From Profundibacter amoris (GTDB taxonomy: Bacteria; Pseudomonadota; Alphaproteobacteria; Rhodobacterales; Rhodobacteraceae), in NCBI RefSeq assembly GCF_003544895.1, contig NZ_CP032125.1:510001-574000 (forward strand): a stretch of 64,000 nucleotides of DNA. Reading direction: 5' to 3'. Position 1 is the stretch's first letter, and every line of letters begins with the position of its first letter. Positions 35,828 through 46,640 of the stretch are shown piece by piece. The notes beneath the pieces are model-generated. The model was not told the DNA's origin, did not search any database, and saw only the letters and a list, made by a program, of their open reading frames with translations. Position numbers and translations under genes: made by a program.

Positions 35828-37210
35828 TTATTGCTCTTTATCCCGGTATGAACCATCGGTGTCAGTTCCCAGATCGCTGAACGAGAGTTGCGGCAGATGC
35901 AGTATAACCTGAACCCCGTCGTTACGTCCTGTTGCAGGCGATGAAATATCCAATTTTCCGCCAATACCATTGGCAATAGTATTTACAATTGCCAATCCCA
36001 ACCCACTGCCTTTGGCACTGCTATCGCCGCGGGCAAACCGCTGTGTCAAAACACCCAGAACCTCGGGCGCAACCACTGGGCCAGCGTTAACCACATACAA
36101 TGTGCCATCCTGTTTCAATGTGACGTTGACAGGCGCATTTTCATCCCCGTGGCGCAGGGCGTTTTCCAGCAGGTTGCGGGTGGCAATGGCAAAGGCATCC
36201 GCATCTACCCGTGACATCACCGGTTCCGGCGGCAGGTCCAGCATCAGCCGGTTGCCGTTGTCGGCATGCGCCAGATCATCGGCCACCATCCGCAGCACCA
36301 CCGCCAGATCATGCGGCGTATCGCTTAACAGATTGGCCCCTTCGGCCCGCGCCATCTGCATCAGCTTTTCCGACAGGCGGTTCAGACGCTTCAGCGAGGC
36401 CTCGATGTCATCTGCCCGCTTGCGTGTGCCCTCCTCGCCGGTTTCCGCGCCCAGACGTTGCGTCTGGGCCAATGCGGCGGCCACAGGGGTGCGCAACTCA
36501 TGGGCCGCGTTGGCGGTAAAACTGCGTTCGGCCGCCAGCGTGCGTTGCAGGCGGGCCAGCAGGGCGTTGACCGCTTCGGCCACGGGGGTGATTTCGTCGG
36601 GCAGATCGCCCGTATCAACCGGCGTCAGGTCGTTGCCATCGCGGCTGGCCACCCCGGCCCGAAACCCGCGCAAGGGGCGCAGCATCAGGCGCACCAGCAC
36701 CCAGATTCCGCCCAGTGTCAGCGGCAGCAGGATAAACAGCGGCAGACCCAGCGCCATCAGGGTTTCGCGCGAAACTTCGGCGCGGTGGTCCAGCGGTTCG
36801 GCAATGGCGATATTGAATTCATCGCCAAGGGCCGCGTCGTAATACAGCCGGTGGGTGGCTGTCTGGACAAAGCCGATTTCGGAATAGGGCGGGAAGTCGC
36901 GGATATCGGCGTCATGCGATCGCAACAGCACCCGTCCTGCTTTGTTACGCACCACATAGGTCAGGAATTCGTCGTGTTCGCGCAGGGTTGTGATCAGTTG
37001 TTCGGTGCCGTCATCCTCGCGTTCGAATATATCCTGAACGGCCAGCGGCAGGATGCGTTGGGCGGTTTCCTGAAGGGCGCTGTCAAACACCTCGTCGATT
37101 TCGCTGCGAATGGTGGCCGCGGTGATAAGCGATGTTACAACCCACAAAACCGCCACCCCCAGACCAATCGCCAGCGCCAGCCGCGCCTGAAGCGAGGACG
37201 GCAGCCTCAT
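35828..37210 (-). CDS. Sensor histidine kinase
   Basis: A 460-residue membrane kinase of the QseC/PmrB type. It has two membrane helices (about 11-32 and 155-176) flanking a periplasmic sensor of about 120 residues, a linker with HAMP-like properties, a dimerisation helix with H237 in HELRTP, the N-box NLLENALRHGD and G-boxes ending KGSGLGLAIV. It overlaps the response-regulator gene by four bases. The sensed signal is unknown; the regulon next door suggests envelope redox or metal stress. Confidence 0.93.
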   Translation of the reverse strand: MRLPSSLQARLALAIGLGVAVLWVVTSLITAATIRSEIDEVFDSALQETAQRILPLAVQDIFEREDDGTEQLITTLREHDEFLTYVVRNKAGRVLLRSHDADIRDFPPYSEIGFVQTATHRLYYDAALGDEFNIAIAEPLDHRAEVSRETLMALGLPLFILLPLTLGGIWVLVRLMLRPLRGFRAGVASRDGNDLTPVDTGDLPDEITPVAEAVNALLARLQRTLAAERSFTANAAHELRTPVAAALAQTQRLGAETGEEGTRKRADDIEASLKRLNRLSEKLMQMARAEGANLLSDTPHDLAVVLRMVADDLAHADNGNRLMLDLPPEPVMSRVDADAFAIATRNLLENALRHGDENAPVNVTLKQDGTLYVVNAGPVVAPEVLGVLTQRFARGDSSAKGSGLGLAIVNTIANGIGGKLDISSPATGRNDGVQVILHLPQLSFSDLGTDTDGSYRDKEQ

Positions 37211-37869
37211 GCTGCCCCCCCTAACCGATACCCCATGCCGCGCACGGTTTCGATCGTGCCTTTGTCCAGCTTCTTGCGCAGGCGGCTGACATGCACCTCG
37301 ATGGTGTTGCTCTCGACCTCGGTGTCAAAGGCATAGAGCCGTTCCTCGAGCTGGGCTTTGGACAATATCTGCCCCGGGCGCTGCACGAAGGCCTCGAACA
37401 GCACCCATTCGCGTGCGGTCAGCCTGACCGGCTTGCCGTTACGGCGCACCGATTTGGCGGCCAGATCAATTTCCAGATTGCCGATGGTAATCAAAGGGTT
37501 GGGGTTGCCGGAATAGCGCCGCGCAACAGCGGCCAGCCGCGCCGAAAGTTCGGACAGATCAAACGGTTTGACCATATAATCATCCGCCCCCGCATTCAGC
37601 CCCTCGATCCGGTCGCTGATCTGGTCCAGCGCGGTCAGGATGATCACCGGTGTGACATCGCCCCGCCCGCGCAATTCGCGCAAAAACGGCAGGCCCCGCC
37701 CGTCAGGCAGCATCAGATCCAGCAGTAGCAAATCATAGGCAGCACTGGCCAGATAGTCACTTGCCTCGTCCAGTCGGGTGACCCAATCGACGGAGTGGCC
37801 TTCGGCCTTGATCTGGTCGCGCACACCTGCGCCCAGCACCGTATCATCCTCGATCAATAAAACCCGCAT
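37207..37869 (-). CDS. OmpR-family response regulator
   Basis: A 220-residue regulator with a receiver domain (acidic pocket IEDD at 6-9, phospho-acceptor D51 in LLDLMLPDG) and a winged-helix output domain (SNTIEVHVSRLRKKL). ATG at 37869 is preceded by AGGA about nine bases upstream and begins exactly at the receiver fold; in-frame ATGs further upstream have no better site. Transcribed divergently from a PepSY gene, with shared operators between them (37913-37967). Confidence 0.94.
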   Translation of the reverse strand: MRVLLIEDDTVLGAGVRDQIKAEGHSVDWVTRLDEASDYLASAAYDLLLLDLMLPDGRGLPFLRELRGRGDVTPVIILTALDQISDRIEGLNAGADDYMVKPFDLSELSARLAAVARRYSGNPNPLITIGNLEIDLAAKSVRRNGKPVRLTAREWVLFEAFVQRPGQILSKAQLEERLYAFDTEVESNTIEVHVSRLRKKLDKGTIETVRGMGYRLGGAA

Positions 37870-37912
37870 CTGCTGTCCTGCCATGAATACTCTGCGCCCC
37901 TCTATCTTGCAC

Positions 37913-37967
37913 AAAGCTGACAGCCACCTGAAGCAGAAAAGAATAAATCCTTCAGGTTGGCGTCAGG
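37913..37967. promoter_or_regulatory. Two-part operator of the two-component regulon, site 1
   Basis: Block 1 (37913-37936, core CTGACAGCCACCTGAAG) and block 2 (TTCAGGTTGGCGTCAGG, 37951-37967) are inverted relatives: ACCTGAAG at 37926-37933 is the complement of CTTCAGGT at 37950-37957. The pair recurs before the DUF2271 gene at 39152-39205 with 23 of 24 bases of block 1 identical. Both sites end 48 bp before their ATG codons. Confidence 0.65.
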
Positions 37968-38015
37968 AATCGCGCGCATAAAGCAGGCAACTTAACCCGA
38001 AGCGGGAGATGGAAA

Positions 38016-38444
38016 ATGAAAAAATCGCTAATGCTTGCCAGTGTTCTGGCCACCCTGTCGGTAGGCACCCTTGCCTATGCCGATGATGATGATTTCTATG
38101 TGCCTATGTCGCAATGGCAATCGCGCGATGCGGTGCGCAGCATGGCCGAGGCGCAAGGCTGGGAAGTGCGCCGTATCAAGATTGATGATGGTTGTTACGA
38201 GGTCAAAGGATATGACGCCTCGGGCCGGAAAATCGAAGCCAAGATTGATCCGGCCACTTTGGCCGTTATCGAAATGGAATACGAGGGCCGCAAACATCGC
38301 GAAGAAGATGAACATGAAGACGACGACGATGATGATGGCTCTCGCCGCAGCAATGGCGGCAACGCAGCCCCGATGACCCCATCCAATCCCCCCGATAACG
38401 GATTGTTCGCACCGGGTGGCAAGCCGAAGGTGATTATCCAATGA
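38016..38444 (+). CDS. Periplasmic PepSY-domain protein
   Basis: A 142-residue secreted protein: signal peptide (about 1-22, MLASVLATLSVGTLAYA), one PepSY domain (about 32-88, including VRSMAEAQGWEVRRIKIDDGCYEVKGYDASGRKIEAKID), then an acidic Glu/Asp/His stretch likely to bind divalent metal and a Gly/Pro tail. It is the first gene after the two-component operator and overlaps the cytochrome b gene by four bases. PepSY proteins of this size often accompany membrane ferric reductases or sensor kinases. Confidence 0.88.
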   Translation: MKKSLMLASVLATLSVGTLAYADDDDFYVPMSQWQSRDAVRSMAEAQGWEVRRIKIDDGCYEVKGYDASGRKIEAKIDPATLAVIEMEYEGRKHREEDEHEDDDDDDGSRRSNGGNAAPMTPSNPPDNGLFAPGGKPKVIIQ

Positions 38445-39064
38445 TCAAGGTCTGGGATCCCTTGCAGCGGCTGTTCCACTGGGGCCTTGTCGCCAGCATC
38501 GCCATTGCATGGCTGACCAGTGAAGACGGCGAAGCCCTGCACGAATGGGCCGGTTACGCAGCCCTTGGCCTGATAGCTTTTCGTCTGGTCTGGGGTTTCA
38601 TTGGCCCGCGCTATGCCCGTTTCAGCCAGTTCATTCGTGGCCCGAAAGCGGTGATCGACTATACCAGGGATATGCTGAACAAGCGCGAAAAGCGTTATAT
38701 TGGGCACAATCCTTTGGGTGCTGTAATGGTGGTTGCCCTGTTGGCGACGACGGGGGCCACCGGTTTCACCGGCTGGCTGATGGTCGAGCCGGAGCGCATG
38801 GCCATGTTGCCCGAAATGCCGGCCTTTGTCACACCGGCCTTTGCCGATTCGGACGGGGACGAAGAGCGCGAATACGGTGGCTATGGCGAAGGCGACGAGG
38901 AAGCCATGGAGGAAATTCACGAGTTTTTCGCCAACCTGTTGCTGCTGCTGATTTTCCTGCATGTCGCCGGGGTGATCTATGCCAGCAGACGCCACAAGGA
39001 AAATCTGGCCCGCGCTATGATCACAGGCAAAAAGCTGGCTGCGGCACCTGACGATATTGCCTGA
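38441..39064 (+). CDS. Cytochrome b561-type membrane protein
   Basis: A 207-residue diheme cytochrome b, four helices. Candidate heme ligands are H12 (LQRLFHWGL), H35 (ALHEWAGYAA) and the late HVAGV histidine. A periplasmic loop near 140-160 is strongly acidic (DSDGDEEREYGGYGEGDEEA), an unusual feature it shares with its PepSY neighbour. It would move electrons across or within the membrane, probably from quinol. A strong terminator follows. Confidence 0.9.
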   Translation: MIKVWDPLQRLFHWGLVASIAIAWLTSEDGEALHEWAGYAALGLIAFRLVWGFIGPRYARFSQFIRGPKAVIDYTRDMLNKREKRYIGHNPLGAVMVVALLATTGATGFTGWLMVEPERMAMLPEMPAFVTPAFADSDGDEEREYGGYGEGDEEAMEEIHEFFANLLLLLIFLHVAGVIYASRRHKENLARAMITGKKLAAAPDDIA

Positions 39065-39094
39065 CGACCCCCGTTCACTCACAGAACGTCCCCC

Positions 39095-39134
39095 GGCCCC
39101 GTCTCTTTCCCCACAAGAGCGGGGCCACTTTTTT
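39095..39134 (+). terminator. Intrinsic terminator after the cytochrome b gene
   Basis: GGCCCCG (39095-39101) and CGGGGCC (39120-39126), extended inward by CTCTT/AAGAG after one bulged base, are followed by ACTTTTTT. It separates the PepSY/cytochrome unit from the DUF2271 unit, which has its own operator. Confidence 0.85.
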
Positions 39135-39151
39135 GGGAAACCCGAATTTCC

Positions 39152-39205
39152 AAAGCTGACAGCAACCTGAAGCAGTTTTTTGCAACATGTCAGGTAAGGG
39201 TCAGG
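39152..39205 (+). promoter_or_regulatory. Two-part operator of the two-component regulon, site 2
   Basis: Block 1 (39152-39175, core CTGACAGCAACCTGAAG) and block 2 (GTCAGGTAAGGGTCAGG, 39189-39205) repeat the arrangement at 37913-37967, with block starts 37 bp apart here and 38 bp there. Both end 48 bp before the ATG. This makes the DUF2271 operon a predicted target of the adjacent response regulator. Confidence 0.65.
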
Positions 39206-39253
39206 CGGGGGCGTCAAAACGAATGCAAGAAAACGAAATCTGGAGACTATGAA

Positions 39254-39721
39254 ATGAAAACCCTACTGTCCGTTCTGGCCCTGACCACTGCAATCGCCGC
39301 ACCTGTCGCTGTTGCCGCCAAACCCGTTACCTTTACCGCGCAGATGAAAAACTATCGCGGCCCCGGCGCCTATCTGGCGCTTTATGTCACCGACAAAAGC
39401 GGCGCCTACAAAGGCACCCTGTGGATGGCCGGTGGCAAATCGAAATATTACAAGCACCTTCCGGGCTGGCATCGTGCCACACGCGGCGATCTGGGGCAGG
39501 TGCGTGGGATCACAGGCGCCAGTGTTGGCGCGGGGCGCACGCTGAAAATCACCCTTGATCTGTCGGATGCACTGTTTGACGCGGGTTACAAGCTGCACGT
39601 TGACAGTTCCGTCGAGGACGGGCGCGATATGGCCAATGATGTGGTGATCCCGCTGACCAGTGCCAACGCAGGCAAACCGGCACGCGGCAAGCGTTACGTC
39701 AGCAGCTTTACCTTTAAATAA
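39254..39721 (+). CDS. Secreted DUF2271 protein with a flavinylation-like motif
   Basis: A 155-residue periplasmic protein: signal peptide (about 1-22) and a beta-rich DUF2271 domain. Residues 86-90 read ITGAS, matching the T-G-A-[ST] pattern that ApbE enzymes use to attach FMN through a threonine phosphoester, so Thr87 is the predicted site. The apbE gene is two genes downstream. DUF2271, PepSY and ApbE genes were reported to co-occur in clusters for extracytosolic flavinylated proteins (from memory). It would be an electron carrier or flavin-binding receptor. Starts after a good operator-promoter region. Confidence 0.85.
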   Translation: MKTLLSVLALTTAIAAPVAVAAKPVTFTAQMKNYRGPGAYLALYVTDKSGAYKGTLWMAGGKSKYYKHLPGWHRATRGDLGQVRGITGASVGAGRTLKITLDLSDALFDAGYKLHVDSSVEDGRDMANDVVIPLTSANAGKPARGKRYVSSFTFK

Positions 39722-39752
39722 TCCCCGATACCCCGTGATAAGGATACCCGTG

Positions 39753-41963
39753 ATGCTGCGTTCTCTGCATAAATACGCCGGTCTGTTTGCCACTGTTCTG
39801 GTGCTGGTTCTGGCCATCAGCGGTGTAACCCTTTCGGTTATTCCCGCCTGGAACAAACTACAGGCCCCCGCCATGACCGAAACCAGCCTGAGCGTGGCCG
39901 ATCTGGCGGCGCGGGTATCCGCAAACTATCCGGCGGTCGAGCAGATCAAACGCGCGCCTTCGGGTCGCATCACCGCCTATTACTTTGAAGGCGATGTTGC
40001 CGGTGCAGTGGTGGTTGATCCTGCCACCGGCAAGGGGGCTGCTGATTATGACACCTCGCCGGTTGTGCAATGGCTGACCAGCCTGCACCGCTCGCTGTTG
40101 CTGGGCGACGGGGGTCGTCTGACGGCAGCCGCCGGTGCACTGGCGATGCTGTTTTTGTCGATCTCGGGTCTGTTTCTGGTGGCGCGGCGCATGGGCGGCT
40201 GGCGGCAGTTCTTTGCCCGCACCCGTGGCCCGCTGGCCGGTCGGTTGCATGTGGAAATCGGACGTTTCACCGCAGCAGGTCTGATCCTTGCCTCGGTGAC
40301 TTCGCTTTACATGGTGGCCAATACCTTCGAGGTTTTGCCACAGGAAAACACTACCCCCGATTTCCCTGCGCAAGTCAGCGGTGAAATGGGCCTGAACCCG
40401 GCCGATATGCCCGCCCTTGCCGCCATCCCGGTCAGTCAGATGCGCGATCTGACCTTTCCCTATGCCGATGACCCGACCGATGTTTACACAATCAGCACCG
40501 ACAGTGGCGAAGGCTATGTCGACCAAGGCACCGGCGTTCTGCTGGCCTGGCAGTCGCTTGGCCCGTGGCAGCAGGTGTTCGAATTCATCTATATGCTGCA
40601 CACCGGTCAGGGTGCGTGGTGGCTGGGACTGATCATGGGCCTGATGGTTCTGGGTGTGCCGGTGATGGCCACAACCGGCGTGATCATGTGGTGGGCCGCC
40701 CGCCGCGCCCGTCCGAAAATGCCCAAAGGCGTGGCCGCAAAACAGGCCGATACCGTGATCCTTGTTGGCTCGGAAGGGGGCAGCACATGGGGCTTTGCCG
40801 CCACGTTGCAAGATGCGCTGATGGCCAAGGGCCATTCGGTCCACGCCGCCCCGATGTCGCGGTTCGAGCCTGAAAAATACACATCCGCCAAACAGATCAT
40901 CCTGTTGGCCGCCACCTATGGTGATGGCGCGGCCCCGTCCTCGGCCAAAGGGTTTATGGACAAGTTGATTGCGCTGAAAACCGCCCCTGCTGCCAGGTTG
41001 GCCGTTCTGGGTTTTGGCGACCGCCAGTTCCCCGCCTATTGCGCCTTTGCACAGCAAGCGGTTGAACAGGCAGAAGAAAAAGGTTGGGATCAACTGATCC
41101 CGATGGATACGGTCGATCAGCAATCGCCACAGGATTTCGCCCGCTGGGGTGCGGCGCTGGGTCAGGCGCTGGGCCATGAACTGGCGCTGGTGCATGAACC
41201 GGTACAGCCCAAAACCCGCCAATTGACCCTGATTTCCCGCCGTGAATATGGCCAGGAGGTGCAGGCCCCCACCGCGATCCTGCGCTTTGCCTTGCCCCGT
41301 ACGTCCCTGCTGGACCGTCTGCGTGGCCGTGGCTGGAAACGGTTCGAGGCCGGTGATCTGCTGGGCATCCTGCCCCAAGGATCGGACATCGCCCGGCTTT
41401 ATTCTCTGGCCAGCGGCACCGGTGACGGTTTTGTCGAGATTTGCGTGAAGAAACACGCGCATGGACTGTGTTCGGGGCAGTTGCTGGATTTGCAAATCGG
41501 TGACAGCATCACCGCTTTCATCCGCCCCAACCCCGATTTCCGCCCCGCCCGCAACAAAAAGCCGGTGATCCTGATCGGGGCCGGCACCGGTATCGGCCCG
41601 CTGGCCGGCTTTGCTCGCGCCAACACCAGACAGCGCCCGATGCACCTGTATTTCGGCATCCGCCACGAAGCATCCGACCTGTTCTATGGCGAGGAAATGC
41701 CCGCATGGCAGGACGCTGGCCATCTGGAAACGGTGAACATCGCCGCCTCGCGCACAGAACAACGCGCCTATGTGCAGGACATCCTGCGCCGTGACGCTGC
41801 CAGAATTGCCGCCCTGATTGAGGGTGGCGCGCAGATTCTGGTCTGTGGCGGGCGGGAAATGGCCGCCGGTGTGACACAGGCCCTGCACGATGTGCTTGCC
41901 CCGCATGGTCTGTGTCCGATCGAATTGAAAGCCCAGGGAAGATACGTCGAAGATGTCTATTGA
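39753..41963 (+). CDS. PepSY-TM/flavodoxin/flavin-reductase fusion protein
   Basis: A 736-residue membrane reductase. Residues 1-340 form the PepSY-TM unit (helices at 9-30, 130-150, 175-195 and 310-335, with periplasmic PepSY). Residues about 345-500 are a flavodoxin domain beginning VILVGSEGGSTWGFA, and about 510-736 a sulfite-reductase-type FNR domain (RLYSLAS, IGAGTGIGPLAGF, ILVCGGREMAAGV) that binds FAD and NADPH. It can carry electrons from NADPH through two flavins to the periplasm. ATG at 39753 has AAGGA eight bases upstream. It overlaps apbE by 11 bp. Confidence 0.9.
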   Translation: MLRSLHKYAGLFATVLVLVLAISGVTLSVIPAWNKLQAPAMTETSLSVADLAARVSANYPAVEQIKRAPSGRITAYYFEGDVAGAVVVDPATGKGAADYDTSPVVQWLTSLHRSLLLGDGGRLTAAAGALAMLFLSISGLFLVARRMGGWRQFFARTRGPLAGRLHVEIGRFTAAGLILASVTSLYMVANTFEVLPQENTTPDFPAQVSGEMGLNPADMPALAAIPVSQMRDLTFPYADDPTDVYTISTDSGEGYVDQGTGVLLAWQSLGPWQQVFEFIYMLHTGQGAWWLGLIMGLMVLGVPVMATTGVIMWWAARRARPKMPKGVAAKQADTVILVGSEGGSTWGFAATLQDALMAKGHSVHAAPMSRFEPEKYTSAKQIILLAATYGDGAAPSSAKGFMDKLIALKTAPAARLAVLGFGDRQFPAYCAFAQQAVEQAEEKGWDQLIPMDTVDQQSPQDFARWGAALGQALGHELALVHEPVQPKTRQLTLISRREYGQEVQAPTAILRFALPRTSLLDRLRGRGWKRFEAGDLLGILPQGSDIARLYSLASGTGDGFVEICVKKHAHGLCSGQLLDLQIGDSITAFIRPNPDFRPARNKKPVILIGAGTGIGPLAGFARANTRQRPMHLYFGIRHEASDLFYGEEMPAWQDAGHLETVNIAASRTEQRAYVQDILRRDAARIAALIEGGAQILVCGGREMAAGVTQALHDVLAPHGLCPIELKAQGRYVEDVY

Positions 41964-42900
41964 ACTGATCCGTATCAAAATGGCTGGCCCTGTGATGGGC
42001 ACCCGCTGGACCGCCGATCTGGGCCTGCCCGAAGGGATTGATCCGGCTGCCGTTGAAACCGCGCTGGCCGATGCGGTGGCGCAGGTGGATGCGCAGATGT
42101 CCACATGGAAAGCGGACAGCGACCTGATGCGCCTGAACGCGGCACCGGTCGGGGAATGGGTGGCGGTTCCGCCCGAACTGATGCAGGTGCTGTCGCGCGG
42201 GCTGGAGATCGGACAGGCCCCGGACGGGGCGTTTGACATCGGGCTGGGGGATCTGGTTTCGGCCTGGGGCTTTGGTGCCGATAACGCCGACGAAGCCACA
42301 ATCCGTGCCAATCTGGGCCGACCCCGCCAGCCCACGCACGAGGTGCTGGAACTGGATGAACAGGGCCTTCGCGCCCGCAAACTGGCCCCGTTGGCGCTGG
42401 ATCTGTCCGGCATCGCCAAAGGATACGGCGTGGACCGGATGATGCGGGTTTGCGGTGATTTCAACATCCCCTCGGCCCTTGTGGCACTGGACGGGGAATT
42501 GCGGGCCAAGGGCGTGCAACCCGACAGCACCCCGTGGTCCGTTGTGATCGAAAAACCGGCCTATGACGCCCGCCTGCCGCTGTCGATGCTGGAATTGCAG
42601 GATGCGGCCGTGGCCACCTCGGGCGATTACCGCCACTGGGTTGAGGTGGATGGCATGCGGCTTTCGCACACGATGGACCACCGCATGGGTGGACCGACAC
42701 TTCCCGGCATTGCCGGTGTCACGGTGGTGGCCGCAGACGGAATGACGGCGGACGCAATGGCCACCGCCATTCTGGTGCTGGGGGTGTCCGACGGGCGTGC
42801 ATTTGCCCAAAAGCGCGGTGTGGATTGCCTGATACTGGAACGCGCTGGCAGCGAATTGCGCCAGCACGGTGTCGGGCCGTTATTTGATGTTGATGCATAA
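41953..42900 (+). CDS. apbE: FAD:protein FMN transferase
   Basis: Attaches FMN covalently to threonine or serine of target proteins using FAD. The 315-residue protein has the GTRWTADLG start, the DIGLGDLVSAWGFG segment, DLSGIAKGYGVDRM and the metal-binding ATSGDYRHW of ApbE. There is no obvious signal peptide, so export or cytosolic action is undecided. It is the last gene of the DUF2271 operon; its likely target is the DUF2271 protein. Confidence 0.93.
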   Translation: MSIELIRIKMAGPVMGTRWTADLGLPEGIDPAAVETALADAVAQVDAQMSTWKADSDLMRLNAAPVGEWVAVPPELMQVLSRGLEIGQAPDGAFDIGLGDLVSAWGFGADNADEATIRANLGRPRQPTHEVLELDEQGLRARKLAPLALDLSGIAKGYGVDRMMRVCGDFNIPSALVALDGELRAKGVQPDSTPWSVVIEKPAYDARLPLSMLELQDAAVATSGDYRHWVEVDGMRLSHTMDHRMGGPTLPGIAGVTVVAADGMTADAMATAILVLGVSDGRAFAQKRGVDCLILERAGSELRQHGVGPLFDVDA

Positions 42901-42943: not shown

Positions 42944-44080
42944 CTAATCCAGTGTCCGGCGGAACCGTAAAAGCGCCAGTAGGCCGAAACCGAATGTGAA
43001 CAGCAGCATTGCGGCCATGGGCGTGCCGACCGCTTCCAGATTGGCCCCCTTAAGCATCACCGCGCGTATAATGCGCAGGAAATGGGTTAAGGGAAACATC
43101 TCGCCGATGTATTGTGCCCAGACGGGCATGCCGCGGAACGGGAACATAAAGCCGGACAACAACAGGGATGGCAGGAAGTAAAAGAACGTTAACTGCATGG
43201 CCTGCATCTGGGTCGTTGCAAAGGTCGAGAACGCATATCCCAACAAAACCAGCGCAAAGACAAAGATGAAAATGCCGACAAGCAATAGTGTCATCGACCC
43301 AACGAATGGAACCCCGAACAACAGCTTTGCAGCCAACAAAACCACGACCACCTGTACCGATCCGACAATCAGAAACGGGATCACCTTGCCCAGCATGATT
43401 TCCAGCGGATTGGCGGGCATCGCCAGCAGGTTTTCCATAGTGCCGCGTTCGATTTCCCGTGTCAGGGCCATTGATGTCATCATCACCATAGTCATTTGCA
43501 GGATCACCCCCAGCAGGCCGGGCACGATGTTATATTGGGTGATACCTTCGGGATTATATCGTCGATGCACCACCACTTCCAATTGGCGCGCCGCCTGATC
43601 AGCGGCCTTCACATCGGCCCCCAATTCACGCGTCAATGCCTGCGCCGCAACCGTGCCAAGGGTTGAAATTGCACCCGAGGCCACAGCAGGATCGGTTGCA
43701 TCCGCCTCGATCAAAATCTGCGGTCGATCACCTTTCAGCACCCTGCGGGTGAAATCCGAAGGGATGGTCACGACAAAGGAAACGGTGCCGTTTTCAATCA
43801 GCTTCTCGGCCTCGACCTGACTGTCGACAACATGGTTGAAACGGTAATAACCGGTGATCTCCAACGCCGAAACCATGGCCCGGGTGAACCTGTCCTGGCT
43901 ACTGGTTACCAAAGCAGCAGGAAGCTCTTTTGGATCGTTGTTGATGGCGAAGCCGAACAGGACCAACTGCATCAGGGGCACGCCCAACATCATTGCAAAT
44001 GTTATCCGGTCGCGCCGCATCTGGATCAATTCCTTGATCAGCAATGCAGCCAGACGGGTGAACGAAAACCAGCCCCTCAT
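42944..44080 (-). CDS. ABC-2 type transporter permease (YbhS/YbhR-like)
   Basis: A 378-residue permease with an N-terminal helix, a large periplasmic domain (about 45-175) and five to six C-terminal helices, the ABC-2 membrane fold. The motif LLSGFMFPFRGMPVWAQYIGEMFPLTHFLRIIR near the end is typical of the YhhJ/YbhS group. Only one permease gene is present, so a homodimer is likely, whereas E. coli has two. It overlaps the ATPase gene by four bases. It probably exports toxic amphipathic compounds. Confidence 0.9.
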   Translation of the reverse strand: MRGWFSFTRLAALLIKELIQMRRDRITFAMMLGVPLMQLVLFGFAINNDPKELPAALVTSSQDRFTRAMVSALEITGYYRFNHVVDSQVEAEKLIENGTVSFVVTIPSDFTRRVLKGDRPQILIEADATDPAVASGAISTLGTVAAQALTRELGADVKAADQAARQLEVVVHRRYNPEGITQYNIVPGLLGVILQMTMVMMTSMALTREIERGTMENLLAMPANPLEIMLGKVIPFLIVGSVQVVVVLLAAKLLFGVPFVGSMTLLLVGIFIFVFALVLLGYAFSTFATTQMQAMQLTFFYFLPSLLLSGFMFPFRGMPVWAQYIGEMFPLTHFLRIIRAVMLKGANLEAVGTPMAAMLLFTFGFGLLALLRFRRTLD

Positions 44081-44994
44081 GTCATGTTATCCTTTGATTT
44101 CGACATGAACTGGATGAACACATCTTCCAGACTGGTTTCCCCTTGATGCGATGTCACTTGCAGCCCCGTCACCGCCGCTTTGACCGCTTTCTTCAGGGCG
44201 ACCCCGTCCTGCCCGACAATATGCAGCGTATTGCCGAACGGGGCGATCTGATCAACGCCTTGTTTGCCGTTTAGCCTTATGGCGACCTGATGCACATCTG
44301 CGCCTTCAACAACCATGGTGGTTAAGGCCGCATTATTGACAACGTCGTGAACGGTGCCGCTGGCCAATAATCTGCCATAGGAAATGTAGTTTATGCGATG
44401 GCATCTTTCGGCCTCGTCCATGTAGTGGGTTGAAACCAGAACGGTCACCCCGTCTGCCGCCAGCGCATGGATTTCATCCCAGAACTCGCGCCGCGCTTTG
44501 GGGTCAACACCTGCTGTGGGTTCATCCAGCAATAACAATTTGGGTTTGTGCATGATGCAGGCAGCCAGGGCCAAACGCTGCTTCCACCCGCCCGACAACC
44601 TGCCGGCCAGTTGTGCACGCCGTGCAGACAGGCCCAGATTTTCCAGTGTATCACGCACCACTTGCCGCGCCGGTTTCAACTGGTACAGGCGCGCAACAAA
44701 CATCAGGTTTTCCTCGATCGACATGTCCTCGTAAAACGAGAACCGCTGGGTCATATAGCCGACCTCGCGTTTGATCTTTAGCTGGTCGCGGTGCAGATCC
44801 ATGCCCAGTACCGTGCCCCCGCCCGCATCCGGTGTCAGCAAGCCGCACATGACACGGATGGTGGTGGTTTTGCCGGATCCGTTCGGCCCCAGAAACCCTG
44901 AAATCTCGCCTTGTTCAACGGCTATGGAAACATTATCGACGACGGTTTTGCCGCCGTAACGTTTGACCAGCCCGTGAACGTCGATGGCTTTCAT
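44077..44994 (-). CDS. ABC transporter ATPase (YbhF-like)
   Basis: A 305-residue ATPase: Walker A GPNGSGKTTT (about 36-45), signature LSGGWKQRL, Walker B LLLLDEPTAG and the switch histidine STHYMDEA. Only one ATPase domain is present, half of the size of E. coli YbhF. The C-terminal ~80 residues are an accessory domain. Gene order TetR, HlyD, ATPase, permease is that of ybiH/ybhGFSR. Confidence 0.92.
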   Translation of the reverse strand: MKAIDVHGLVKRYGGKTVVDNVSIAVEQGEISGFLGPNGSGKTTTIRVMCGLLTPDAGGGTVLGMDLHRDQLKIKREVGYMTQRFSFYEDMSIEENLMFVARLYQLKPARQVVRDTLENLGLSARRAQLAGRLSGGWKQRLALAACIMHKPKLLLLDEPTAGVDPKARREFWDEIHALAADGVTVLVSTHYMDEAERCHRINYISYGRLLASGTVHDVVNNAALTTMVVEGADVHQVAIRLNGKQGVDQIAPFGNTLHIVGQDGVALKKAVKAAVTGLQVTSHQGETSLEDVFIQFMSKSKDNMT

Positions 44995-45941
44995 TCCGCC
45001 GCCTCGATCAAATCGACGTTGACGATCTGGCCCGGCTTCAGGGTGCCATCTCCTTTAAGGCGGGCTTCTAGCAGGTAGACCAGTTTTTGCCGGTTTTCGA
45101 GCGAATAGATTACAGGCGGCGTATATTCCGGCCCCGCTGAAATATAGCTGACTGTCGCTGTTATGCCCTTTGCGCAACCGTCACACTCTACCGCCAGTGC
45201 CGTGCCCAGCTGGATCTCGGAAAGATAGCTTTCGGCCACATACAGACGCAGTTTGATTGCCCCGTTTGGCAAGACCAACAATACGGGGGCTTGCGGTCCG
45301 GCCGTTTCGCCAGCGCTGCGAATAATGTCAATTATTGTGCCATCCCTGCTGGCCACCATGGTGCGTTTTGATAAACGCCAAAGCGCGTTCTCCAATGATG
45401 CCTGTGCCTGCGCGACGCTGGCTTTTGCCGCGGCAATTGCGTCTTTGCGGGCGGGCAGTTTCGCAACGGCAAGGTTTGCCTCCAACTCGGCAACATGGGC
45501 GTCGGACACCTCGCTTTGGGTCTTTGCCAGATCATATTTCGATTGCGAAATTGCCCCGCGGCGCACCAAATCCGCCTGCCGTTCCAGTTCGCGCTTTGCT
45601 TCTGCGGCCTGTGCTTTGGCCGACCGCAAGGATGCCTCGATTACAGCAATTTCCTCGGGCCGCCGCCCTTGCGAGATATCCGCCAGTTTGCTTTTGGCCA
45701 GCGCCAACGCTGCCTGTGCCTGAGACACGGCAATTTCCGCATCGCGACGTTCAAGAACGACCAGTTCCTGCCCCGCGCCGATTATATCCCCGCGTTTTAC
45801 TGTAACCTCGGATATCTGGGCAATTTCGATCGGGGCCAGCAAAATATATTCACCTTCAACATATCCGGTTGCCAGCGGGAACGGGGCCAAACAGGCAGAC
45901 AAAAGCGAATTTACCAGAGGGATGGAACATAGGAAGCTCAT
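44991..45941 (-). CDS. HlyD-family membrane-fusion adaptor, probable lipoprotein
   Basis: A 316-residue periplasmic adaptor with a lipoyl half-motif near residues 40-70, a long coiled-coil hairpin (about 75-200, rich in Ala, Glu and Lys) and a beta-barrel C-terminal region. The N-terminus contains LLSAC, a lipobox, so acylation at about residue 17 is predicted. It links the ABC permease to an outer membrane channel not encoded nearby. Overlaps both neighbouring genes by four bases. Confidence 0.9.
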   Translation of the reverse strand: MSFLCSIPLVNSLLSACLAPFPLATGYVEGEYILLAPIEIAQISEVTVKRGDIIGAGQELVVLERRDAEIAVSQAQAALALAKSKLADISQGRRPEEIAVIEASLRSAKAQAAEAKRELERQADLVRRGAISQSKYDLAKTQSEVSDAHVAELEANLAVAKLPARKDAIAAAKASVAQAQASLENALWRLSKRTMVASRDGTIIDIIRSAGETAGPQAPVLLVLPNGAIKLRLYVAESYLSEIQLGTALAVECDGCAKGITATVSYISAGPEYTPPVIYSLENRQKLVYLLEARLKGDGTLKPGQIVNVDLIEAAE

Positions 45942-46585
45942 TGGATTGATCCTTTTCTTGCGACATCCAGTGTTGCCCGCAGGTTAGTCCGGATTACGTT
46001 CTGTATGGCGCACACTTCTGTCTGTTCAACGCTATTCCAGCCCATACGCCGGCGCACAATTTCCTGACCGACCCTGAAGTATATGACCTGTCCGACCAGT
46101 GAAAAAACTGTCAGCATAACATCAGAGCTGCTTGCATTCTGACCGGTTGCTTTGGCCCAAAGCAGACACACGGATTCATGAACAGGGGCAATGAATTTTG
46201 GGAAAACAAGGTCAAGGACCTCACTTACCTGCGCCACCTCTTTTAACATGAACTGAGCCATTTCCTTACCCTGCGGCTGCTCTAGTAAAATGTGAACAAA
46301 TTCCGAAAGAACCTGTTCCAGCTTTGATGCGGCGTCTTCGGGGGACATGTCGTCAATCTTTTCCAAACCGGAAACTGCCATTGCCAGATGTTCGGCTATA
46401 TGTTCGGCACAGGCCAATCGCAGGCCCTTCTTGCCACCGAAATAGTATGAAATCGCCGAAATATTTGCGCCCGCAGCCTGTGCGACCTGTCGGGTTGATG
46501 TGGCATCATACCCGAATTCCCCAAACAAACGCACCCCCGCGTCGATGAGGGCAAGTCGTGTTGATCCGCGGGATTGATTGCTCAT
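45938..46585 (-). CDS. TetR-family regulator, CecR-like
   Basis: A 215-residue repressor: an HTH at about 10-55 (STRQVAQAAGANISAISYYFGGKKGL) and a C-terminal ligand domain like the CecR/YbiH family, which controls the YbhFSR exporter in E. coli. The start ATG at 46585 is chosen because it lies 12 bases after AAGGAGG; the frame is open to 46636. A palindrome at 46641-46656 upstream is the likely operator. First gene of the four-gene export operon. Confidence 0.9.
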   Translation of the reverse strand: MSNQSRGSTRLALIDAGVRLFGEFGYDATSTRQVAQAAGANISAISYYFGGKKGLRLACAEHIAEHLAMAVSGLEKIDDMSPEDAASKLEQVLSEFVHILLEQPQGKEMAQFMLKEVAQVSEVLDLVFPKFIAPVHESVCLLWAKATGQNASSSDVMLTVFSLVGQVIYFRVGQEIVRRRMGWNSVEQTEVCAIQNVIRTNLRATLDVARKGSIQ

Positions 46586-46640
46586 TGTTATCAATGCCTC
46601 CTTGGGTCGGGGTAGGGGGCGGGGCTTGCATCGCAATCTT

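Follow-up and report, generated by a model that had tools for sequence, protein, structure and literature searches.

A predicted DUF2271 flavinylation module with a PepSY_TM reductase, a signal-less ApbE and a neighbouring two-component system in Profundibacter amoris

Gene content of the locus

A stretch of 64,000 nucleotides from Profundibacter amoris (hereafter the window, to which all positions refer) carries three adjacent genes predicted to build and reduce a flavin-bearing periplasmic electron carrier. The first (39254-39721, plus strand) encodes a 155-aa DUF2271 protein (PF10029, E 7e-33; 113.7 bits against a curated Pfam cut-off of 27.3), and a Marinosulfonomonas metagenome-assembled genome encodes a near-identical protein (99%; locus L193). 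The second (39753-41963, plus strand) encodes, from the ATG at 39753, a 736-aa PepSY_TM reductase (PF03929 PepSY_TM, 6e-39, together with Flavodoxin_1 and NAD_binding_1). It overlaps by 11 bp the third gene (41953-42900, plus strand), whose 315-aa product is an ApbE flavin mononucleotide (FMN) transferase without a signal peptide (PF02424, 6e-72). Open frames and Pfam matches confirm that the three-gene set recognized in a first-pass annotation of the window is real. Its genes had been placed correctly, but the bounds of 39254-42900 were too narrow, the conserved unit covering 35828-42900. The genome (3.56 Mb, one contig) encodes one ApbE and one DUF2271 protein, and no FMN_bind protein was found in it; the window DUF2271 protein is therefore the obvious client of the window ApbE.

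Gene sets of this PepSY/DUF2271/ApbE kind have already been published, so the main idea of the annotation was correct but not new. DUF2271 genes are found beside orphan apbE genes, and the DUF2271 protein of A. ursilacus is flavinylated by its ApbE, according to the available text of a survey that also catalogued 2833 PepSY clusters with DUF2271 and 1077 PepSY-NAD fusions (eLife 2021, Meheust et al., PMC8238504). The PepSY-like clusters described there share with the window a PepSY_TM reductase, a DUF2271 protein with [S/T]GA[S/T] and an ApbE. The window differs in having TGAS instead of TGAT or SGAT and in lacking DUF4198 among the neighbours scanned. A dedicated two-component system, an operator-like box and a signal-less ApbE are likewise not among the features described in the available text of PMC8238504. 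What is added here is a larger module with its own two-component system, a two-site operator-like box shared by its genes and a clade of signal-less ApbEs; these, the PepSY_2 and cytochrome b561 proteins and the hemes of the reductase had been missed.

Flavinylation site and export of the DUF2271 protein

The ITGAS motif occupies residues 86-90 of the DUF2271 protein (39509-39523, plus strand), with Thr at residue 87 and Ser at residue 90 (codon 39521-39523). Across 70 aligned relatives, residue 87 is Thr in 67 and Ser in 3, residue 88 is Gly in 70/70, residue 89 is Ala in 69/70 and residue 90 is Ser in 70/70. Judged by these alignments ITGAS is not a chance motif, and the concern that it might not be conserved beside apbE does not hold. 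The residue that receives FMN is the final S/T of D-x-x-[S/T]-G-A-[S/T] (2025 review, PMC12052999). Because this rule puts FMN on the last S/T and Ser stands there in all 70 sequences, Ser90 is probably the acceptor. The earlier proposal was right about the motif and its Thr87 but named that residue as the FMN site, a choice that is probably wrong by the motif rule and by comparison with the classic DUF2271 subtype, whose matched motifs all end in Thr (e.g. DGVSGATRAPG). Scores to a profile of the window-subtype DUF2271 were used to divide the two subtypes, so that their definition rests on sequence and not on gene neighbours; the window DUF2271 and ApbE belong to a different subclade from the classic subtype. 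In A. ursilacus, flavinylation was lost on mutating the Thr of the predicted [S/T]GA[S/T] site, as given in the available text of PMC8238504.

Hydropathy indicates a Sec-type signal peptide at about residues 1-22 of the DUF2271 protein, and 66 of 69 relatives have a hydrophobic N-terminus. Twin-arginine export was rejected, as RR occurs within the first 15 residues in 0/69 relatives. The structures of window proteins used for fold comparison were predictions. The DUF2271 model (predicted local distance difference test, pLDDT, 94.8) had no significant Foldseek match in the PDB (best E 0.039) and, by VIA-align, middling Z scores (up to 7.5) to C2/beta-sandwich domains; since these matches are weak, no function was drawn from the fold. 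At three loci (L155, L163 and L164) a single protein combines DUF2271 with a diverged ApbE; its N-terminus is signal-like, no [S/T]GA[S/T] motif was found in it, and it possibly represents a third subtype.

An ApbE without an export signal

The window ApbE has its conserved GPVMGTRW motif from residue 12 onwards, and its reading frame is closed by a stop 9 codons ahead of the ATG. The protein therefore has no N-terminal extension, and a wrongly called start hiding a signal peptide is ruled out for the window. Neither a signal peptide nor a lipobox, by which extracytosolic ApbEs are recognized, is present in the window ApbE, and its relatives are alike. Among cluster ApbEs of the window's bacterial family the top 10-residue hydropathy mean before the motif was about 1.1, and the distance from stop to motif was at most 25 residues in 75/99 cluster ApbEs. 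Control ApbEs, drawn only from the same family, had a hydrophobic, signal-like N-terminus (>1.6) in 49/50 entries (46 distinct non-cluster proteins), many with a lipobox or twin Arg; the lone exception was itself a cluster-type ApbE. This hydropathy comparison replaced a stricter signal-peptide rule, which was discarded because it undercounted the controls, some sequences being cut inside the signal. In a tree, the DUF2271-linked ApbEs of both subtypes grouped in a single clade that excluded the 46 controls (support 0.967). Classic-subtype ApbEs mostly lack a signal by inspection, with 1/18 passing a lenient rule.

The window ApbE is probably cytosolic. Since the cluster ApbEs have no signal and DUF2271 has a Sec-type one, FMN is probably put on DUF2271 in the cytosol, before export. 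For the DUF2271-linked clade as a whole, the chances seem about even that the client receives its flavin from ApbE in the cytosol and that Sec then moves the flavin-bearing pre-protein. The signal-less ApbE weakens the common view that flavin attachment takes place in the periplasm; if attachment does follow synthesis and precede export, flavin adenine dinucleotide (FAD) need not be supplied to the periplasm. Pairing a signal-less ApbE with an exported client is unusual, because a known signal-less bacterial ApbE, that of Klebsiella pneumoniae, has a cytosolic client, fumarate reductase, which stays in the cytosol (PMC12052999), whereas DUF2271 carries an export signal. The clade thus offers a clean test case for flavinylation before export.

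PepSY reductase and predicted electron path

Four His residues (H6, H112, H166 and H283) are invariant in 113/113 sequences of the membrane half of the reductase. The profile of this half had as its sole clear and relevant solved match FoxB of P. aeruginosa (7abw, E 3e-8), which likewise has a PepSY_TM membrane core with heme histidines; a diflavin reductase half like that of the window protein is missing from the solved chain of FoxB (382 aa). In sequence, the C-terminal half of the window reductase matches CYPOR, NOS and CysJ, and its predicted fold resembles cytochrome P450 reductase and CysJ (Z about 28, ~390 residues aligned, root-mean-square deviation about 5.4; full model pLDDT 85.8, predicted template modelling score 0.61). 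Domains and invariant residues suggest a route from NADPH through FAD, FMN and two hemes to covalent FMN in the periplasm. The NADPH to FAD/FMN to periplasmic covalent FMN path of the first-pass annotation is supported by domains, folds and the conserved motif, with the hemes overlooked. A PepSY_TM gene clustered with ApbE and DUF2271, with at least one signal peptide, is the arrangement that defines a PepSY-like flavinylation system, and it is found here. At loci L046, L048 and L100 the PepSY reductase lies in two open frames, perhaps frameshifted.

Two-component system and conserved neighbourhood

Upstream of the DUF2271 gene lie four further genes of the unit. A QseC/PmrB-like sensor histidine kinase (35828-37210, minus strand; Pfam 2CSK_N/HAMP/HisKA/HATPase) has two transmembrane (TM) helices and a periplasmic 2CSK_N sensor of about 115 residues. 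QseC-like, PmrB-like and heavy-metal sensor kinase models all match it below their NCBIfam cut-offs, and its nearest solved chains are QseC and HprS. The adjacent OmpR/PmrA-QseB-type response regulator (37207-37914, minus strand; start probably the ATG at 37884) has Response_reg and Trans_reg_C domains and matches PmrA-like and QseB-like models, also below cut-offs. On the plus strand follow a secreted, acidic-tailed PepSY_2 protein (38016-38444; PF13670, 4.6e-27) and a membrane heme protein of the cytochrome b561 type, which contains an acidic stretch (38441-39064; PF01292, 1.3e-31).

Gene order was compared, in the genomes sampled, across 70 neighbourhoods from the window's bacterial family and 45 named loci from Reyranella, Bosea, Mesorhizobium, Xanthobacter, Skermanella, Burkholderiales and others. 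The usual order was kinase and response regulator (divergent), PepSY_2, sometimes cytochrome b561, DUF2271, PepSY reductase and ApbE. In 90 non-redundant window-subtype loci with enough flank, the kinase was present in 80, the response regulator in 80, PepSY_2 in 75, cytochrome b561 in 26, the reductase in 88 and ApbE in 87, making cytochrome b561 an optional member. The kinase and the response regulator were each found in 0/22 classic-subtype loci when these were scanned with window-subtype profiles and thresholds, which distant regulators, PepSY_2 or cytochrome proteins could escape. Reductase and DUF2271 are swapped at L085 and L232-L235, and the Xanthobacter two-component genes have the other orientation.

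PepSY_2 is probably a regulator or ligand of the kinase. As described in the available text of the respective papers, the secreted PepSY protein DbfQ controls the neighbouring kinase DbfS in V. cholerae (PMC12714742), and binding to the Fe(II) sensor BqsS has been predicted for another small secreted PepSY protein (PMC12666569). These DbfQRS and BqsRS modules resemble the window in that the gene of a small secreted PepSY protein neighbours those of a histidine kinase and a response regulator; unlike in the window, no tie to flavinylation genes is described in that text. PepSY_2 relatives have two near-invariant Cys residues. The window protein keeps Cys60 but has Phe where 90/91 aligned sequences and Marinosulfonomonas L193 have the other Cys, a natural variant or a sequencing error. 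An RExxE iron motif in the kinase was dropped as a candidate, being present in just 36/60 sequences; a conserved ExxE pair follows TM1 but may be general to this kinase family. Residue 104 of cytochrome b561 falls in a TGAT tetrapeptide in or next to a predicted membrane helix, probably incidentally.

Operator-like boxes

Two operator-like boxes lie on the plus strand, each about 80 nt before a gene: AAGCTGACAGCCACCTGAAGCAG (37914-37936), a direct repeat CTGAC/CTGAA with an 11-bp period, before PepSY_2, and AAGCTGACAGCAACCTGAAGCAG (39153-39175) before DUF2271. A weaker inverted copy (37949-37967, minus strand; 2 mismatches to the 19-bp core) faces the response regulator gene. With up to 3 mismatches allowed, the common pattern AAGCTGACAGC(C/A)ACCTGAAGCAG occurs at these two plus-strand sites only in the 3.56-Mb genome, in which the backwards pattern, used as a control, had 0 sites. 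Fourteen other genomes had 0-2 sites each. A site above 8 bits was present in 92/94 homologous intergenic regions, a figure from an iteratively refined matrix trained on these same regions; outside the training set, a site above 10 bits lay upstream of DUF2271 in 41/123 loci, compared with 5/322 random stretches. This is the distribution that a dedicated regulator, presumably binding at the boxes, would be expected to leave.

Proposed function and alternatives

Taken together, the locus is proposed to be an inducible transmembrane electron-delivery module with cytosolic flavinylation and its own two-component switch (probability about 0.6). Before Sec export or in the course of it, cytosolic ApbE would attach FMN to Ser90 of the DUF2271 pre-protein. 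The periplasmic carrier would be reduced by the PepSY protein, electrons passing from NADPH to the FAD and FMN of the cytosolic diflavin half, across two bis-His hemes and on to the covalent FMN. The dedicated two-component system, probably tuned by secreted PepSY_2, would sense a periplasmic signal and, through the shared operator, switch on PepSY_2/cytochrome b561 and DUF2271/reductase/ApbE. The cue may be a metal or the redox state of the envelope, and not iron starvation of the Fur type. In the weakest step, the electrons would go to a periplasmic metal ion, by analogy most likely Fe(III) in the first place: PepSY_TM relatives reduce ferrisiderophores, and one PepSY_TM protein, CrpH, has been put forward as a copper reductase (PMC13038864). 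With its own two-component switch, a PepSY/DUF2271 electron route would give a handle on the purpose of such modules.

Several points weigh against this proposal. The canonical Asp (D-x-x) is absent from the window DUF2271, which has R84 there, a position held in most relatives by N, D or S; in one test system loss of the Asp had only a minor effect (PMC12052999). Signal peptides were called by a hydropathy rule, not SignalP. In Salmonella, cytosolic ApbE was unable to replace periplasmic ApbE (review PMC12052999). The tested A. ursilacus ApbE is called 'signal peptide-truncated' in the available text of PMC8238504, so a cytosolic location need not hold for every DUF2271-linked ApbE. Finally, iron transporters, TonB receptors and DUF4198 proteins were all absent from the ten proteins around the module that were scanned with Pfam.

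The last result also bears on the alternative that survives best, rather unlikely as it is: that the locus is an iron-assimilation reductase of the ordinary sort, comparable to the PepSY/DUF2271/DUF4198/ApbE operons that Fur controls in Caulobacter and Shewanella and differing only in its regulation. The core parts are the same, and reduction of ferrisiderophores by PepSY_TM relatives would fit. In the available text on Caulobacter, CC_3059-3063 is iron- and Fur-responsive (PMC3751524) and needed under ethylenediaminetetraacetic acid (PMC12004947), and periplasmic ferric reduction is proposed for CCNA_03155-03159 (PepSY, DUF2271, DUF4198, ApbE and flavoreductase), which has the same core families as the window. 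That operon is, however, Fur-regulated, with no two-component system of its own mentioned in the text available. The window subtype has both such a system and an operator-like box, its DUF2271 and ApbE fall in a different subclade, and neither the DUF4198 nor the TonB receptor typical of classic, Fur-controlled iron-type clusters was among the ten proteins scanned.

It is improbable that the module instead serves periplasmic redox repair or oxidant and copper stress as an analogue of HprSR-MsrPQ, its sensor detecting oxidants or copper and its carrier feeding repair or Cu(II) reduction. QseC and HprS as nearest solved relatives of the kinase, its below-cut-off matches to heavy-metal sensor models, the paired Cys of PepSY_2 relatives and the role proposed for CrpH all lean that way. 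Yet MsrP lies beside the two-component genes in HprSR-MsrPQ, whereas no MsrP domain or copper gene was seen among the module proteins scanned, the kinase sensor is Cys-free in 97/98 sequences and the window PepSY_2 is without one of its two Cys.

No better odds attach to the idea that ApbE is exported non-classically or serves another cytosolic protein, which would make its missing signal uninformative about where DUF2271 is flavinylated: we know of no demonstration of a covalent flavin passing through Sec, but the genome has a single ApbE and no FMN_bind protein, and ApbE lies near DUF2271 in 87/90 relatives. The Klebsiella enzyme with its cytosolic fumarate reductase (review PMC12052999) speaks for that idea.

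Downstream of the module and convergent with it, 42944-46636 (minus strand) encodes an ABC-2 permease, an ABC ATPase, an HlyD-like protein and a CecR-type TetR regulator, an ordinary efflux operon that is apparently unrelated.

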